Assembly (NCBI RefSeq): GCF_038002345.1
Contig: NZ_JBBOCJ010000001.1
Span: 4,464,001 to 4,528,000, forward strand
Direction of reading: 5' to 3'
DNA: 64,000 bases
DNA from: Paenibacillus sp. FSL M7-0420
GTDB taxonomy: Bacteria; Bacillota; Bacilli; Paenibacillales; Paenibacillaceae
Part shown: positions 40,540-49,509 of the stretch, one piece after another
Layout of the letters: every line of letters begins with the position of its first letter
Numbering within the stretch: position 1 is the first letter of the stretch
Position numbers and translations under genes: made by a program
The notes under the pieces: model-generated
Told to the model about the DNA's origin: nothing
Seen by the model: only the letters and a program-made list of their open reading frames with translations
Databases searched by the model: none

Positions 40540-40803
40540 AAGCAAAACCGATGATGGAACAAAGATTACTTGCAGTCTTCAGAGAGCCGGTGGGTGGTGA
40601 GAACCGGTGGCGGACATTAATCTTTAGCGCTCCTGAGATATTGTATTGAACACAAGAGTAGGTACAATCGGATCACTCCGTTACCAGTGTGGCCTTTGCA
40701 GGCCAATGAGGCTGCTTCTTAACCGTCGCAGTGAATTAGGGTGGTACCACGACAACTCTCGTCCCTTACTACGGCAGTAGTATGGGGGTTGGGAGTTTTT
40801 TTA
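40540..40803 (+). promoter_or_regulatory. T-box riboswitch of serA (probably serine-specific)
   Basis: The leader has the Stem I signature AGAGAG...GGTGAGAACC (40581-40606), the T-box AGGGTGGTACCACG (40738-40751) and a terminator with AACTCTCG / TTGGGAGTT and seven T residues (40753-40803). Uncharged tRNA would stabilise the antiterminator. UCU, AGC and UCC triplets, all serine codons, lie in the 3' strand of Stem I (40621-40633); which one is the specifier cannot be settled here. Serine specificity also fits serA downstream. Confidence 0.9.
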
Positions 40804-40979
40804 TTGCCATATTCCTATGAATCGGGTACCTTTGTATGCTGTTTCTTTTATGCGACAGCGCGTTACCCTGATGTCAAGCTGCTTATTACGCTCTTGTAAG
40901 TTCTGGTACTGCGGATTGCCTTACCCGGTGATCCTTGGCATATACAATAGCTTTCCCATTTGAAGGAGGACAAGAGACC
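40804..40979 (+). other. Leader between T-box terminator and serA
   Basis: About 175 bases between the terminator and serA without a gene. Apart from the ribosome binding site GAAGGAGG at its end nothing was recognised. Confidence 0.4.
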
Positions 40980-42572
40980 ATGTTTAAAGTATTAGTATCG
41001 GACCCGATCAGCGATTTGGGCATTCAGCAATTGATGGACGCAAGCGATGTGACTGTAGACAAGAAAACAGGACTAAGTGAAGATGAGCTAGTTGCAATCA
41101 TTGGCGAATATGACGGCTTACTCGTTCGCAGCCAGACTACCGTGACTGACAAAATTATCGCCGCCGGTACTAATCTCAAGGTTATCGGCCGGGCCGGAGT
41201 CGGCGTGGACAACATCAAGCTGGAGTCAGCCACGCAGCGCGGTGTAGTCGTTATCAATGCTCCGGACGGCAATACCATTACAACCTGTGAACATGCTTTT
41301 GCCATGATGATGGCCTTGGCCCGTCATATTCCTCAAGCCTATGCGAAGACGATTTCCGGCGTATGGGACAGAAAAACCTTCCTCGGCGTAGAGCTGCGCG
41401 GCAAAACACTGGGCGTACTCGGCATGGGCCGGATCGGCAGCGAGGTGGCCAAGCGCGCCAAAGCCTTCGGCATGAGCATCCTGGCCTATGACCCGTTCCT
41501 GACAGCTGACCGTGCAGAGAAAATGGAAGTGAAGCTGGCTTCGGTAGACGACATTGTGCGCGGTGCAGACTTCATCACCGTTCACACACCGCTCACCCCT
41601 GAGACCCGCCACATGATCTCCCGTCCGCAATTCGAAGTGATGAAAAAAGGCATGCGCATCATCAACTGTGCCCGCGGCGGTGTCATCGATGAAATGGCGC
41701 TGGTAGAAGCGATTGACAGCGGTATTGTAGCCGGTGCTGCGTTCGACGTCTTCGAGAAGGAGCCGCCTGAAGCAGACCACCCGTTCCTTACACATCCGAA
41801 GATTATTGTGACTCCGCATCTGGGTGCTTCGACGATTGAAGCCCAGGAGAACGTGGCCATCGATGTATCCGAGCAGGTCCTCCATATCCTGCGCAACGAA
41901 CCGTTCATCAACGCGGTGAACATTCCGCCGGTTGCACCTAGCGTGATGAACAAGCTGCAGCCGTACTTCACCCTCGGCGAGAAGCTGGGCAGCTTCGCTA
42001 CGCAGATTACGGACGGAGCGATCCGCGAGATCCATGTGGAATATGCCGGTGATCTCTCGGATGTGGATACCCAGCCGCTTACCCGCTATGTCGTCAAAGG
42101 TGTGCTCACCCGCCACTTTGCCGGAGATGTGAACATCGTCAACTCGATGCATCTGGCGAAGACCCGTGATGTGAATGTAGTGGTGACCAAGGCTTCCAAA
42201 ACCAAAGGCTTCACCAACCTCATCACGGTAACACTCAAGGCTGAGCATGATGAAGAGCGTCTGGTCGCCGGTACCCTGCTGCAGGGCTATGGCGAACGGA
42301 TCGTTAAGGTCAACAAGTTCCCGGTCGATATTGCTCCGGAAGGCCATCAGCTTGTCATCTCGCACAACGATAAGCCGGGTATCATCGGACTCGTCGGCAC
42401 CCTGCTTGGCGAGAACGGCGTCAATATCGCATCCATGCAGGTTGGCCGGACTATCATCGGCGGAGCGGCCATCATGCTCCTGACCGTTGATAAGGGTGTA
42501 CCGAAGGAGGTCCTGGTGAAGCTGGCCGGACTGCCGGAGATCAACACCGCTGAGGAGATCATTCTGCTCTAA
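40980..42572 (+). CDS. serA: D-3-phosphoglycerate dehydrogenase
   Basis: A protein of 530 residues, first enzyme of serine synthesis. The catalytic and NAD domains (about 1-310) show GMGRIGSEVAKRAKAFGM, the catalytic GRAGVGVDN loop and NCARGGVIDE. An intervening domain and a C-terminal ACT domain (from about 455, NDKPGIIGLVGTLLGENGVN) complete the long form. ATG 40980 has GAAGGAGG upstream. Transcription should be set by tRNA charging through the T-box leader. Confidence 0.96.
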   Translation: MFKVLVSDPISDLGIQQLMDASDVTVDKKTGLSEDELVAIIGEYDGLLVRSQTTVTDKIIAAGTNLKVIGRAGVGVDNIKLESATQRGVVVINAPDGNTITTCEHAFAMMMALARHIPQAYAKTISGVWDRKTFLGVELRGKTLGVLGMGRIGSEVAKRAKAFGMSILAYDPFLTADRAEKMEVKLASVDDIVRGADFITVHTPLTPETRHMISRPQFEVMKKGMRIINCARGGVIDEMALVEAIDSGIVAGAAFDVFEKEPPEADHPFLTHPKIIVTPHLGASTIEAQENVAIDVSEQVLHILRNEPFINAVNIPPVAPSVMNKLQPYFTLGEKLGSFATQITDGAIREIHVEYAGDLSDVDTQPLTRYVVKGVLTRHFAGDVNIVNSMHLAKTRDVNVVVTKASKTKGFTNLITVTLKAEHDEERLVAGTLLQGYGERIVKVNKFPVDIAPEGHQLVISHNDKPGIIGLVGTLLGENGVNIASMQVGRTIIGGAAIMLLTVDKGVPKEVLVKLAGLPEINTAEEIILL

Positions 42573-43757: not shown

Positions 43758-43830
43758 TAATAGACCAAATGCACTAGTATCCCCTATAATATTACAATAC
43801 ACATTATTATTTATAGGGGGACTTTACATT

Positions 43831-45081
43831 ATGGACTGGATGAACAAGCTGCCGTTGAAACAAAAAATCGTCACCGGATGTTACCTGGTTGCCGCTTTAT
43901 TCGCTGTCCCTGTCTTAATTACGCTAATCCTTATGGACAGGCTGCTCATCGGCATTATTCTTGTCGCTGTCCTGGCAGCGCTGACTTACCCGCTTGCGCG
44001 CTTCATTGAGAGAACGCTTACATCTTCATTTGAGGATATCTCCAATGTGACGCACACGATTGCCAAAGGCGACTTCACCAGCCGTGCTGACGAGAATGGC
44101 TCCATGGGCGACATTAGCCGCTCCTTCAACACCATGATTGACAAGCTCAAAAAAATCCTCACCGATGCCTCACAGATTACCCGTCAGGTTATGGACGCCA
44201 GCCGCGGGATTGAAGACAAGAATCAGAACCTGAAGTTTGTCATGGCGCAGGTGGCCTCCTCCTCCAATGAACTGGCCCTCGGTGCTAACGAAATCTCGGT
44301 GGATATCGCTGATATGACCGAATCGATCAAGGATATCGAAATCAAAGTCTCCAATTATACGAATTCCACCAAGGAAATGAATAGAAGGTCTGTACATACG
44401 CTGGAATTGGTAGAACAGGGGCGGCAATCGGTGGATACCCAAGCCGAAGGCATGCGCAAGAACATCCAGGCTACCCGGAAGGTGGCGGATACCATCGAAG
44501 CCCTATCGCATAACGCACGAGGCATTACGATGATTACCAAGACGATTACTGAAATTGCTGAACAGACCAATCTGCTGTCGCTCAATGCTTCTATTGAAGC
44601 CGCCCGTGCAGGCGAGCATGGCCGCGGGTTCGCAGTTGTTGCCCAGGAGGTCCGCAAGCTGGCCGAGGAATCCACCGCTTCAACCAAAGAGGTGTTCGGT
44701 CTGGTACGCAGCATCGAAGCGGATATCAAGCAGGCTATTGATAACATCGCCATTAACGAAGAGGTAGTCCAGGTGCAGAATGAGATGATTACGGAGACGG
44801 CCAACATCTTTGCTCAAATTGTGCATAGTGTCCAATACATAACCGAGCAGATTGCCTCTTTCTCCGCAGAGAGTGACCTTATGCTGGAGAGCGCGCTCAA
44901 GATCTCCGGGGCGATCGAGAATATCTCAGCCATCACCCAGGAGACCGCCGCAGGGACGGAAGAGGTATCCGCAGCAATGAACGAACAGATTCATGCTCTG
45001 CAATCCGTAGCTGAGGAGACAGAGAAGATGACCTCCGCAGTCTTCAACCTGCAAAAAACGATTCATATTTTCAAATTTTAA
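43831..45081 (+). CDS. Methyl-accepting chemotaxis protein lacking an ectodomain
   Basis: A protein of 416 residues. Two membrane spans (about 12-30 and 34-54) follow one another with hardly any loop, then a HAMP-like region, then a long coiled signalling domain whose tip is [24 protein letters not shown]. Without a periplasmic loop it cannot sense outside ligands in the usual way and may read membrane or cytoplasmic state. CheR is in the left block. The ATG at 43831 has AGGGGG upstream; the longer upstream frame is not supported. Confidence 0.88.
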
Positions 45082-45522: not shown

Positions 45523-45550
45523 TTGACAAAAGAGGAGCAAGGAATATATT
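45523..45550 (+). promoter_or_regulatory. Promoter of the c-di-GMP riboswitch operon
   Basis: TTGACA (45523-45528) and TATATT (45545-45550) with a 16-bp spacer; a transcript would start near 45557, about 20-30 bases before the riboswitch. Confidence 0.7.
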
Positions 45551-45577
45551 GTAAAGGAAAATTCTCCACAAATTCAT

Positions 45578-45685
45578 TTATAACCGCATACCGGCAAAAT
45601 TCACCGAAAGGGAATGACGCAAAGCCATGGATCTACAGTCTCATTTCTGAAGTGGGATCATGACAGCCAGGTTGCTGAAAAACTG
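45578..45685 (+). promoter_or_regulatory. Cyclic-di-GMP-I (GEMM) riboswitch
   Basis: The conserved core is present in order: GCATACCGGCAAAA, the P1b hairpin closed by GAAA (ATTCACCGAAAGGGAAT), the invariant GACGCAAAGCC, a second stem ending GGATC...GATCATG, and CAGCCAGGTTGCTGA, which corresponds to the GCGGGGUUACCGA tetraloop-receptor side of the Vc2 class. A terminator follows 46 bases later. It therefore senses c-di-GMP and controls the downstream ThDP-enzyme gene at the level of transcription. Whether c-di-GMP turns it on or off cannot be told. Confidence 0.92.
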
Positions 45686-45730
45686 TGAACGCCTTAGGTT
45701 TCGCGTTTGATTATGGTGATTCGTGCAACA

Positions 45731-45766
45731 GACCTGTGCTCCAATGTTGAGTACAGGTTTTCTATT
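45731..45766 (+). terminator. Expression-platform terminator of the c-di-GMP riboswitch
   Basis: ACCTGTGCTC and GAGTACAGGT pair around a 7-nt loop, followed by TTTCTATT. CAGGTT at the riboswitch 3' side (45669-45674) could pair with part of the 5' arm (GACCTG) as an antiterminator. Confidence 0.75.
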
Positions 45767-45795
45767 GCTGACGTATACAAATAACAACTTGCGGG

Positions 45796-47439
45796 GTGGA
45801 TGTTCTGAAGACAGTTGCAGATTATATGGCGGAAGCATTACGCAATCTGGGAGTCACTCATTCTTTTGGAATCATAGGCAAGTCTATTTGCCCCATCGCT
45901 TTGAAAATGGTTGACTACGGTATAGAGTTCATCCCCGGCCGGCACGAATCCAGCTCCGGCTTCGCCGCCGGCGGTTATGCTCTGAAGACCGGCAGTCTCG
46001 GGGTAGCCTTCGGCACCTCCGGTCCGGGCGGAACGAATCTGCTCACCGCAGCAGCGCATGCCAAGGCCAATAATCTTCCCGTCCTCTTCATCACCGGACA
46101 TCAGTCCATCAAGGAGCTGGGCATTCCCCAATGTCAGGATTCCACTTCCTATCTGGCTGATTTGGCGGATATGTTCCGGCCGGCCACCCTCTTCAGCAAG
46201 CTCGTTGAACGCGGCGATCACTTCAGCACGATTTTCAACCATGCCCTATCCATCGCCCTCGGTGACCGGAAAGGTCCGGTCCATCTCTGCATTCCGTTTG
46301 ATGTGCAGACAGAGCGGCTCGCGGAATGCCGGATTGTTCTGCCGGAACGCGAGGGACTAGTCAGTTATCAGAACTATGACCGGGTCATCTCGGCGATTAA
46401 TCAATCCGCCAGACCGCTGATCATTGCCGGTAAAGGCGTCAACCGTTCAGGTGCCCATCAGGAACTGGTCCAGCTGGCCGAAACCTTCAACATTCCTGTA
46501 GTCACCTCTCCAGGCGGCAAAGGCGCCATAGCTTATGATCACCCGCTCTACCACGGTCCGGTCGGCGTCGGCGGCTCTTCGCACGGCGATGAATTGCTGA
46601 ACAACAGTGATCTGTTCATTGTTCTGGGCTCCCGGCTGAGCGACATGACCATCTGCAACCTGAAGCCGGAGAATCATCCGCAGCAGCTGATCCAGTTCGA
46701 TGTAGATCCAACCTTTGTCGGCAAAATACTGTCCTCATCCACCATCGCTGTCGGCGGGGACTTAAGGGACAACCTGGCACTGTATCTTCAGAAGCTGGAC
46801 TCCTCTACGGTCACCAGGCATGAAATCACAATCTCCAATGCTTACAATGACGAGCTGCCCGTGCTGGCCGGCCTCTCTCTGGCTTCGGTAATGAGCACGA
46901 TGAGCGACTTGATTCCTTACAACAGCAGCGTGTTTGTAGATGACGGCAGCCATGGCTTCAATGCTGTGAAATGGTTCAATGTCCGCAGGCCCGGCAGCTT
47001 CATATTCGATGCCTACTTTGCCTGTATGGGCAATTCAATTGGCATGTCCATCGGCGCCAAGGCTGCCTCTCCCGGGGAGACTGTCTTCTGTATTACCGGG
47101 GACGGCTGTTTTATGATGCTCGGAGCTGAAATAAACACGGCCGTTTGCAAGGACATTCCGGTAATTTTCATCGTGGTGAACAATATGCAGCTGGATATGG
47201 CGCTCAAGGGCATGGAGAAAACGACCGGCCGGATTGACGGTACGATCTTCGAGGTTCCGATGGATGCCGTGAAATTCGCCGAATCGCTGGGTGCAGCCGG
47301 CTTCCGCTGCGAGACGCAGGAGGAGTTCGCTGCCGCAATCCGCGAAGCTGTGGCCCTTAACAAGGCAGCTGTCATTGAACTGCTGACTGACCGTGATGAA
47401 ATGCCTCCTACGGCGCACCGAACGCTGGATCTTACGTAA
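45796..47439 (+). CDS. ThDP-dependent acetolactate-synthase-like enzyme
   Basis: A protein of 547 residues with the three-domain ALS/pyruvate-oxidase fold. The ThDP-activating Glu is Glu51 in GRHESSSGFAAGGYA; the cofactor motif GDGCFMM...VVNN is at 435-463. The middle domain has AGKGVNRSG. It probably makes a new C-C bond from a 2-oxo acid, but the substrate is unknown. The GTG start at 45796 has no good ribosome site; a CTG at 45805, giving the usual start KTVADYMAEAL, follows GGGGTGG. It is first in a c-di-GMP-controlled set. Confidence 0.88.
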   Translation: MDVLKTVADYMAEALRNLGVTHSFGIIGKSICPIALKMVDYGIEFIPGRHESSSGFAAGGYALKTGSLGVAFGTSGPGGTNLLTAAAHAKANNLPVLFITGHQSIKELGIPQCQDSTSYLADLADMFRPATLFSKLVERGDHFSTIFNHALSIALGDRKGPVHLCIPFDVQTERLAECRIVLPEREGLVSYQNYDRVISAINQSARPLIIAGKGVNRSGAHQELVQLAETFNIPVVTSPGGKGAIAYDHPLYHGPVGVGGSSHGDELLNNSDLFIVLGSRLSDMTICNLKPENHPQQLIQFDVDPTFVGKILSSSTIAVGGDLRDNLALYLQKLDSSTVTRHEITISNAYNDELPVLAGLSLASVMSTMSDLIPYNSSVFVDDGSHGFNAVKWFNVRRPGSFIFDAYFACMGNSIGMSIGAKAASPGETVFCITGDGCFMMLGAEINTAVCKDIPVIFIVVNNMQLDMALKGMEKTTGRIDGTIFEVPMDAVKFAESLGAAGFRCETQEEFAAAIREAVALNKAAVIELLTDRDEMPPTAHRTLDLT

Positions 47440-47489
47440 GGAAGCCATATCCGCACACCTTTTCTAACCTACTGTCAGGAGGACATAAC

Positions 47490-47870
47490 GTGAACAAGAG
47501 CATGAACAGCGGACTCGATCATTTCACTGATCTCTCAGGAGATTATGGGGCCAAGGCCCTGGCTCCGATCAAAGAGCATTTTCCGGAATTAGCCGAATAT
47601 ATCATGGGCAATGCTTATGGCGATATTTTTCAGCGGACCACGATTGGCTCTGACTGGAAGGAGATTGCAGTGATCTCGTCTCTGATTACGATGGGGCAAT
47701 ATGAACAGCTGGGGGTTCATTATGTAATGGCGCTCCGCGTTGGCATGACCGTCGAGCAGATCAAGGGTGTGCTGCTGCATCTGACCCCTTGCGTCGGTGC
47801 CCCCCGGGTGATTTCGGCCTTTAATGTGCTGCTGGATACCCTGGAGGAGATCAAAGAAAAATCTTCATAA
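47490..47870 (+). CDS. Carboxymuconolactone-decarboxylase-family protein
   Basis: A small all-alpha protein of 126 residues. Segments EIAVISSLITMGQYEQLGVHYVMAL and GAPRVISAFNVL match the family. The CxxC pair of the AhpD-type redox members is absent, so it is likely of the non-redox lactone/decarboxylase class. GTG 47490 has AGGAGG eight bases upstream. It follows the ThDP enzyme by 50 bases without a terminator, so the two should be cotranscribed. Confidence 0.88.
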   Translation: MNKSMNSGLDHFTDLSGDYGAKALAPIKEHFPELAEYIMGNAYGDIFQRTTIGSDWKEIAVISSLITMGQYEQLGVHYVMALRVGMTVEQIKGVLLHLTPCVGAPRVISAFNVLLDTLEEIKEKSS

Positions 47871-47893
47871 TTCTACAAATTTCGACTTTTCAA

Positions 47894-47923
47894 TTGCACA
47901 TTTCAGGATGATCTGGTTATAAT
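47894..47923 (+). promoter_or_regulatory. Internal promoter before the STAS-like gene
   Basis: TTGCAC (47894-47899) and TATAAT (47918-47923) are 18 bp apart, in the gap after the CMD gene. It would let the last two genes be expressed without the riboswitch. Confidence 0.6.
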
Positions 47924-48022
47924 GAAGGCAAAATATCCCAAATCGAACTGCGGTTTTGTCGAATAGAGTCGCAGAAATAATGTTTTGGAGGTATTGGAAA
48001 TTACACTTAGGGAGAGATCAAC

Positions 48023-48373
48023 ATGGGACAATTTATTTTGAAGACAGATACTGCGAAGAAAGTAATCAATATTGAGCTGGAGGGAACCTTCTCTAACGAG
48101 GACGGGCTCAAATCCATACAGGCTTACCAGCAGACCATTAACCCGATCAGCCCTGCTGAATATGCACTAGAGATCGACTGCCGCAAGCTGAATGTAACAG
48201 CTCCTGATGTTGTACCGCTGCTTGAAGGCTGCTTCATCATGTTCAAGGCTGACGGCTTCCAGAAAGTGAGTCTTACCCTGGAAAATAACCCGATCCTCAA
48301 AATGCAGCTGGCACGCCTGGGCCGCAAAGCCGGACTTGAGAACCTGGAGATCACTTCAACCGTACAAGCTTAA
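48023..48373 (+). CDS. Small STAS-like protein, function uncertain
   Basis: A protein of 116 residues with an alternating strand/helix pattern like STAS or SpoIIAA-type domains: VINIELEGTFSNEDGL, then YALEIDCRKLNV, then VSLTLENNPILKMQLARLG. The phosphorylatable Ser of classical anti-sigma antagonists is not evident. It is placed between a CMD-family gene and a FabH-like gene, an unusual context. A start ATG has GGGAGAG upstream. A scaffold or regulatory role for the neighbouring enzymes is only a guess. Confidence 0.65.
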   Translation: MGQFILKTDTAKKVINIELEGTFSNEDGLKSIQAYQQTINPISPAEYALEIDCRKLNVTAPDVVPLLEGCFIMFKADGFQKVSLTLENNPILKMQLARLGRKAGLENLEITSTVQA

Positions 48374-48455
48374 TAAATACAATTTAAACCTAAATCAGCC
48401 GCTTGAAACGCACATGCTAATTCATTCATTGAACCGGCTGCTAATGCCGGAAGAG

Positions 48456-48500
48456 AGTTTTGTAAGAAGCAGATTCGTGAGAAGTATAGCTAACAAAACT
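48456..48500 (+). repeat. Inverted repeat before the FabH-like ribosome site
   Basis: AGTTTTGT (48456-48463) and ACAAAACT (48493-48500) are perfect complements around 29 bases; TTAGGAGG starts at 48501. It may influence translation of the FabH-like gene. Confidence 0.45.
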
Positions 48501-48516
48501 TTAGGAGGTCTGTACT

Positions 48517-49509
48517 ATGGCGGGGATTCGCATTAAGGACATTGATATCTACCATCCAGACAAAAGAATCGGCAATGACTTTTTCATACAGCATTTTGAC
48601 GATAAAGGTATTGATATCCGTGGACTGCTGGCTACTCTGGGCCGTCAAAACCGCTACAGCATCGACAGCCCGGATGAGAACTCCCTGACAATGGCTTTTG
48701 AAGCCGCAAGTAATGTTCTGGAGAAGACCGGTCTTACCGGCCCTGACATTGACCTGATCGCTTATGCAAGCCAGACTCCTGAATATATATTTCCTACGAA
48801 CTCATTGATGATTCACCGCCTGATTAACGGGGCCTCGCATACCATCTGTATTGACAGCAATGCCAACTGTGCCGGAATGACCGCCTCGGTTGAACAGGTC
48901 AGCCGCCAGATGATGGCGAACCCGAGAATCCGCCGCGCTCTCGTCATCGGCTCCGATTATGTGGCGCCGCATGCGGACAAGAATGATCCGGTATATTACG
49001 CGAACTTTGGTGATGCCGCTGCCGCTGTCATTCTGGAGCGCGATGAGCATTCGGTCGGCTTCATTGACTCTATCTACCAGACAGACACCTGTGTGTACGG
49101 CAACTCTCTGTTCCCGGCAGAAGGCCTGGCTAAGCTCGGACGCACCGGTGTGGCCGCAGGAGAGTTCAATGTGAAGTTCATTCCATTCGATGATTCCATC
49201 TGTGTGGATGCTGCTTCCGAATCGATCAACACTCTGCTGAGCAACAACGGGATTGCCCCTGAATCGGTCAAGGCTGCCTGCTTCTCACAGCTGTCTCTTC
49301 CGAACATCCAGGCCGTCTCCGGCAAAACCGGCATTAACCCTGAGGCCGCAGTCTACATAGGCGATGAGTTCGGCTATACCTCGACCAGCAGCCCATTCAT
49401 TGCCCTTCACAAAGCCGTCACTACAAGGCAGCTTGAACGCGGAGACAAGGTCCTGTTCTGGACCGTAGGTGCCGGATGGCAGAACGTTGCATTTGTAATG
49501 GAGTACTAG
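48517..49509 (+). CDS. FabH-like ketoacyl synthase III with altered triad
   Basis: A thiolase-fold protein of 330 residues. Cys118 (NANCAGMTA) takes the place of the FabH nucleophile and FGDAAAAVIL is the family glycine motif. The active-site His of HQAN is replaced (FSQLSLPN, Ser257), and the Asn of GNTS is Tyr287 (FGYTSTSS). Decarboxylative condensation needs His and Asn, so an acyltransfer or other thioester reaction is more likely. AGGAGG precedes ATG 48517. It is last in the set behind the c-di-GMP riboswitch. Confidence 0.88.
   Translation: MAGIRIKDIDIYHPDKRIGNDFFIQHFDDKGIDIRGLLATLGRQNRYSIDSPDENSLTMAFEAASNVLEKTGLTGPDIDLIAYASQTPEYIFPTNSLMIHRLINGASHTICIDSNANCAGMTASVEQVSRQMMANPRIRRALVIGSDYVAPHADKNDPVYYANFGDAAAAVILERDEHSVGFIDSIYQTDTCVYGNSLFPAEGLAKLGRTGVAAGEFNVKFIPFDDSICVDAASESINTLLSNNGIAPESVKAACFSQLSLPNIQAVSGKTGINPEAAVYIGDEFGYTSTSSPFIALHKAVTTRQLERGDKVLFWTVGAGWQNVAFVMEY

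Follow-up and report, generated by a model that had tools for sequence, protein, structure and literature searches.

A conserved c-di-GMP-I riboswitch ahead of a predicted carboligase and acyltransferase gene set in Paenibacillus

Introduction

Pairs of a thiamine diphosphate (ThDP)-dependent enzyme and a protein resembling β-ketoacyl-acyl carrier protein (ACP) synthase III (KAS III) are known from several small-molecule pathways. In xenocyloin synthesis (xclABC), XclB and XclC are listed as ester-forming (PMC4425429) and the ketosynthase (KS) is listed as acylating (PMC4578411), and both carbazoles (PMC7466098) and furanolides (PMC8777810) are described as being built by such pairs. CybF, the KAS III-like member of the CybE/CybF furanolide pair, carries the annotation 3-oxoacyl-ACP synthase (PMC8777810), and the ThDP enzymes BbmA and CsmA are called CybE homologues (PMC12395478). 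Acyloin esters have also been connected with the genus Paenibacillus, as the title of a thesis cited in PMC13248692 announces the first discovery of a natural origin of these compounds and names Paenibacillus PK1-4R. Here, we analyse a locus in a stretch of 64,000 nucleotides (nt) from Paenibacillus sp. FSL M7-0420 (NZ_JBBOCJ010000001.1, positions 4,464,001-4,528,000, forward strand), hereafter the window, on which all coordinates are based. At this locus a riboswitch of the cyclic di-GMP (c-di-GMP)-I class is followed by genes for a ThDP-dependent carboligase, a carboxymuconolactone decarboxylase-like (CMD) protein, a STAS-fold protein and a FabH-like protein, in that order.

The locus resembles xclABC in that a ThDP enzyme is encoded near a KAS III-like protein, and its FabH-like protein shares 47% identity, as well as the Cys/Ser/Tyr site, with the relative from Xenorhabdus bovienii. 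However, the ThDP enzymes of the two systems are only 23% identical, the window set contains no XclA orthologue, and it possesses a single KS, to which the extra KS of Xenorhabdus is 17% identical, whilst adding a CMD protein, a STAS protein and riboswitch control. In carbazole synthesis by CqsB3/CqsB1, CqsB1 is described as condensing its substrates with decarboxylation (PMC7466098), whereas the FabH-like protein of the window lacks the His/Asn pair. The ThDP and KAS III-like pairing is also common to CybE/CybF, and the best solved matches of the window ThDP protein are BbmA and CsmA (PDB 8x3x and 8x3z); no acyl-CoA synthetase (CybC) is present among the four genes of the set, the rest of the genome not having been checked. 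With regard to the c-di-GMP-I class itself, the aptamer scores above the gathering threshold and the terminator platform is the usual one, but the target, a carboligase and acyltransferase set, differs. Neither this class of riboswitch nor this pairing of enzymes is new in itself, whereas no report that links a carboligase/acyltransferase pathway with control by a c-di-GMP riboswitch was found in the literature searched.

The riboswitch and its target genes

The element at 45583-45679 scores 61.6 bits against the c-di-GMP-I covariance model (RF01051, GEMM-I), for which the cut-off is 35 bits. It is preceded by a SigA-type promoter (TTGACA-16-TATATT, 45523-45550) and followed by an intrinsic terminator (45732-45766), composed of a hairpin at 45732-45758 and a U tail, all on the forward strand, as are the genes and sites of the locus given below. 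Downstream lie the genes for the acetolactate-synthase-like ThDP carboligase (45796-47439), the CMD-family protein (47490-47870), the STAS-fold protein, which is SpoIIAA/SiaC-like (48023-48373), and the FabH-like protein (48517-49509).

Among 100 genomes of the genus, 63 contain a match to the ThDP protein at an E-value of 1e-100, and the 58 (the window's genome included) in which this match is at least 76% identical are treated here as the window's own clade. Presence was scored by tblastn on stretches fetched around the 57 other loci (E-value 1e-4, at least 24% identity), a setting that misses weaker relatives, and a 34-residue FabH remnant at one locus (L146) was counted as absent. The aptamer is found at 54 of the 57 other loci, or 55/58 with the window, the CMD gene at 58/58, the STAS gene at 52/58 and the FabH-like gene at 46/58. 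An initial annotation of this DNA had made its case dependent on the four genes keeping company in other genomes, and they do so at 46/58 own-clade loci and at 26/26 loci of a second set, labelled here the P. amylolyticus group, where the order ThDP-CMD-STAS-FabH recurs with a ThDP protein at 72-75% identity. Three further loci (L155, L156 and L157) encode a ThDP protein approximately 50% identical to that of the window, and the stretches fetched from them gave no aptamer, CMD, STAS or FabH matches.

In 54 of the 55 own-clade leaders the unpaired position before GCAAA is a G, which we take to be G20, the ligand-binding position that selects c-di-GMP. The single leader with an A at this position (L110) may differ in its choice of ligand; a clade with cGAMP-type aptamers, in which this G is replaced by A, was considered and rejected as the A occurs in that one leader only. 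As the initial annotation had proposed, the riboswitch is a genuine member of the c-di-GMP-I class, with predicted ligand binding and with its own promoter and terminator; all three elements are conserved. That annotation had also regarded the targets as unusual, a view that is upheld within the same genome: the annotated targets of the other c-di-GMP-I aptamers (one, L003, was left out of this comparison) are FapA-like, transglutaminase (two aptamers), GH26-PA14 and adhesin-like proteins, from which the carboligase set stands apart. Two of these aptamers (L002/L004) are arranged in tandem at positions 380135-380370 of the genome, ahead of a transglutaminase-like protein.

The three own-clade genomes without an aptamer at the locus (G076, G097 and G098) all retain the promoter, and G076 the terminator as well; in each of them STAS and FabH are missing from the locus too. 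Loss of the aptamer is associated with loss of STAS (Fisher 0.0006) and of FabH (Fisher 0.007) when phylogeny is ignored. The leader of G076 (L153), in which promoter and terminator remain upstream of the ThDP gene, resembles a natural aptamer deletion.

Expression platform and direction of the switch

A terminator was found in 55/55 leaders. Nine of the ten pairs of its stem are kept in all 39 distinct hairpins and the remaining pair in 33 of them, and one stem pair varies among G-C, A-U and G-U. Folding of the nascent transcript predicts an alternative pairing, in which 45665-45679 pairs with 45720-45740 to form an antiterminator, whose four core pairs have a probability of 0.46-0.48 when the transcript extends to 45742 and of 0.65-0.68 when it extends to 45748. 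A control with shuffled linkers covered 47 of the 55 leaders, six others being unparsed by the pattern and two being duplicates. In these 47, pairing between the terminator 5′ arm and the aptamer strand has a mean of 0.50, against 0.16 for shuffled linkers, and the predicted antiterminator exceeds the leader's own control mean in 43. The first antiterminator strand contains the 3′ strand of the aptamer (45667-45673) and the second overlaps the 5′ arm of the terminator, so that aptamer and antiterminator would be mutually exclusive. The switch is therefore most likely an OFF switch in which c-di-GMP is predicted to repress, with synthesis of the enzymes expected when c-di-GMP is low.

The encoded proteins

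Against solved chains, the ThDP protein scores 246 bits with BbmA, 217 bits with CsmA and 171 bits with the best acetolactate synthase. It keeps intact both a GRHE motif, whose Glu we take to be the activating Glu, and a GDG...NN motif, to which we likewise presume its customary role. The CMD protein matches the Pfam CMD family at 40.9 bits (cut-off 23) and the PcaC model at 39.6 bits (curated cut-off 155.7).

The small protein encoded at 48023-48373 has the STAS/SpoIIAA fold, although it aligns with SpoIIAA and SiaC at 8% and 6% identity, respectively, and, unlike those systems, its set contains no kinase or phosphatase. Searches of Pfam returned no family for either this protein or a Cohnella counterpart.

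The FabH-like protein does not carry the Cys-His-Asn triad of FabH (KAS III). In printed alignments with solved FabH chains its C118 is aligned with the catalytic Cys, whilst S257 stands opposite the His and Y287 opposite the Asn, and all three residues are invariant across 43 aligned relatives. Its score against TIGR00747 (FabH/KAS III) is 112.5 bits, below the curated cut-off of 292.1. Since the decarboxylating His/Asn pair has been lost, acyl transfer would fit this protein better than a Claisen condensation.

Regulation of the STAS-FabH unit

A separate SigA-like promoter (TGCACA-17-TATAAT, 47895-47923) lies between the CMD and STAS genes, followed by a perfect Spo0A-type box (TGTCGAA, 47957-47963; consensus presumed). 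Such a box occurs within 200 nt ahead of STAS at 37/52 own-clade loci, the background being 0.033 per 200 nt, although these loci are related and the 37 boxes are thus not 37 independent events. It occurs at 1/16 loci that carry STAS-FabH only and at 0/26 loci of the P. amylolyticus group. The initial annotation had placed all four genes under one riboswitch, a claim that is not sustained: as STAS-FabH has its own promoter, the riboswitch would chiefly govern ThDP-CMD. A terminator scan lists none in 47871-48022, so read-through into STAS-FabH is possible.

Related gene sets in other clades

Relatives of the FabH-like family were collected from named genomes, 80 loci being kept of 175 stretches. 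Sixteen of these (L160-L175; Cohnella, P. oenotherae and others), termed here the Cohnella type, encode a ThDP protein approximately 27% identical to that of the window (26-29% in the four compared), and for the only one compared with solved structures (L162) the closest is CsmA, at 393 bits. STAS and FabH-like genes follow the ThDP gene at all 16 loci, the three being successive on one strand with short gaps. A methyl-accepting chemotaxis protein (MCP) gene precedes them at 13/16 (12 identified by clusters of open reading frames (ORFs) and one, L173, by tblastn) and a GAF-type protein gene at 10/16, the domain having been checked on L162 only. Ahead of the MCP gene, an aptamer above the Rfam cut-off is present at 9/16 loci; two of these aptamers belong to the c-di-GMP-I-GGC family and one (L171) is marginal, with 38 bits against 35. 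These matches were rechecked with Rfam because the RNAalifold structure of the model used (R1) was poor, with 12 pairs. The stretches of L161 and L163 end at contig edges, and a missing aptamer there is uninformative. At L174 and L175, runs of similar ORFs of approximately 140-190 residues lie at 9.2-12.9 kb, 3′ of FabH, and the one tested has no Pfam match.

In Xenorhabdus (two loci) and Pectobacterium (one) the ThDP protein is 21-23% identical to the window's and encoded no more than approximately 3 kb from the FabH-like gene; no STAS match was found at these three loci. One Xenorhabdus locus (L158) has the order ThDP gene, another KS gene, FabH-like gene. The order xclA-xclB-xclC of the xenocyloin genes was reportedly described by Proschak in 2014. 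At one other locus (L237), the STAS gene is on the opposite strand.

The FabH-like family thus adjoins three unrelated carboligase types, 18-31% identical to one another, and c-di-GMP-type aptamers occur in two divergent sets. The latter may reflect convergence, or an ancient inheritance in which the carboligase was swapped.

A proposed pathway and its alternatives

We propose a small-molecule pathway of carboligation, decarboxylation and O-acylation that yields an acyloin ester and is governed by a c-di-GMP OFF riboswitch, a reading to which we assign a probability of roughly 0.58. At low c-di-GMP the antiterminator would form and ThDP-CMD would be transcribed, whilst at high c-di-GMP the folded aptamer would keep the antiterminator strand and the terminator would halt transcription. 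The ThDP enzyme would join two alpha-keto acids, with subsequent decarboxylation to an acyloin, a step in which the CMD protein may assist. The FabH-like protein would then acylate the hydroxyl of the acyloin, with an acyl-CoA or acyl-ACP as donor, an activity that we model on XclB/XclC, and the STAS protein would bind or regulate its FabH-like partner (or ACP). As STAS-FabH has a promoter of its own, from which it may also be transcribed and which Spo0A possibly controls, the full product would need both inputs. The suggestion of the initial annotation that the set makes a small acyl or acyloin-type product stands as the best guess, and the simplest such product is probably an acyloin ester.

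A number of observations count against this proposal. For the window's own leader, the observed antiterminator value is reached by 6/20 shuffled linkers, and four of the 47 leaders (L132, L134, L135 and L141) fall below their control mean, so the case for the antiterminator rests on the leaders as a group. In the full-length leader the terminator is thermodynamically favoured with or without the aptamer, and antitermination would consequently have to be kinetic. In leaders of the Cohnella type the switch overlap amounts to just approximately 2 nt, and no direction is drawn from them. Nine own-clade genomes keep the riboswitch although FabH is gone at the locus, and the link between the two is accordingly not strict. 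The P. amylolyticus group has all four genes at each of its 26 loci, yet no aptamer match was found there, nor was a c-di-GMP-I aptamer found in 4/4 whole genomes of this group (G108-G111), in a search in which no control genome gave a match either. Of the 16 STAS-FabH loci in other Bacillota (L221-L236), 15 lack a ThDP match in their vicinity. The window MCP is not orthologous to that of the Cohnella type. Finally, the equation of the Xenorhabdus locus L158 with xclA-xclB-xclC is an assumption.

An ON switch, in which c-di-GMP would activate the genes, is unlikely: the slight overlap in the Cohnella-type leaders would allow it, but in the window's clade the antiterminator requires the 3′ strand of the aptamer and excludes a ligand-stabilized aptamer. 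There is a similarly small chance that the ThDP and FabH-like proteins act as a CybE/CybF-type pair in furanolide synthesis. The closest solved relatives of the ThDP protein, BbmA and CsmA at 246 and 217 bits, are those called CybE homologues (PMC12395478), and the annotation of CybF is that of a 3-oxoacyl-ACP synthase (PMC8777810); however, the four-gene set includes neither an acyl-CoA synthetase nor an NAD(P)-binding, CybG-like gene.

It is quite improbable that the locus consists of two independent units, a riboswitch-controlled ThDP-CMD and a separate STAS-FabH, whose adjacency is incidental. This reading accounts for the promoter and Spo0A-type box of STAS, for the 15/16 STAS-FabH loci without a nearby ThDP match and for the 6/58 own-clade loci at which ThDP-CMD occurs without STAS and FabH, but not readily for the association of one FabH family with three mutually unrelated carboligase types or for the consecutive, closely spaced ThDP, STAS and FabH genes of the Cohnella type. 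Equally doubtful is a catalytically dead FabH-like protein that serves as a sensor or scaffold with the STAS protein. The replacement of the triad His and Asn by Ser and Tyr in 43/43 aligned members, and the fact that the STAS gene is the commonest neighbour of the FabH-like gene, would suit such a role, whereas every one of these 43 sequences retains the active-site Cys and we take the carboligase-adjacent relatives, such as XclC, to be active acyltransferases. Least probable is an ordinary acetolactate synthase of primary or overflow metabolism, with c-di-GMP adjusting its dose, for, although several sources name the ThDP orthologues acetolactate synthase and the TIGR00118 match spans nearly the full length, no acetolactate synthase model (IlvB, AlsS) among the best 25 of 55 families reaches its curated NCBIfam cut-off (TIGR00118, 282.7 against 538.35 bits; AlsS TIGR02418, 208.4 against 551.1), the set contains neither a regulatory subunit nor an acetolactate decarboxylase, and the partners of the enzyme are CMD, STAS and an altered FabH.

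Neighbouring genes and a possible link to motility

The gene upstream of the riboswitch encodes an MCP (HAMP and MCPsignal domains; 43822-45081), which is included in the system only by its position and is found just upstream in 47/57 fetched own-clade stretches. The MCP as one conserved part of both the window and Cohnella-type systems was considered and rejected, since an MCP query from L160 ranks the window MCP 13th of 41 in its own genome. Further upstream, a T-box leader at 40542-40769 (105.7 bits, cut-off 93) precedes an ORF (40935-42572) that resembles D-3-phosphoglycerate dehydrogenase, as judged by eye.

Flagellar-sigma-like sites with no more than two mismatches lie ahead of the aptamer at 6/9 Cohnella-type loci, the background being approximately 0.18 per kb, and at L166-L171 a flagellar-sigma-like -10 element (NCCGATAW) is situated upstream of the aptamer by approximately 47-82 nt. 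A strict version of the flagellar-sigma pattern occurs no more often than its reversed control in three genomes, and the argument for such a promoter is thus a weak, positional one.

A wider and less probable scenario is that cells at low c-di-GMP, i.e. motile cells, signal their lifestyle with a diffusible or volatile compound, an acyloin ester or else a butenolide, with the c-di-GMP OFF riboswitch gating the carboligase and Spo0A gating the acyltransferase. The Cohnella genes for this chemistry would form an apparent operon together with those for a chemoreceptor and a GAF protein. A c-di-GMP riboswitch of its own would control that operon, at several loci along with a promoter of flagellar-sigma-like type, and the enzymes that make the molecule would thereby be co-expressed with its possible receptor.

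If the proposed OFF-riboswitch pathway is correct, the messenger that governs the choice between motile and sessile life would also gate the synthesis of one small molecule, and would do so in two sets whose carboligases are approximately 27% identical. The analysis further delineates a KAS III-like family that occurs widely, is partnered by a STAS protein and is unusual in its Cys/Ser/Tyr site, and it offers a candidate gene set for the acyloin esters reported from Paenibacillus.

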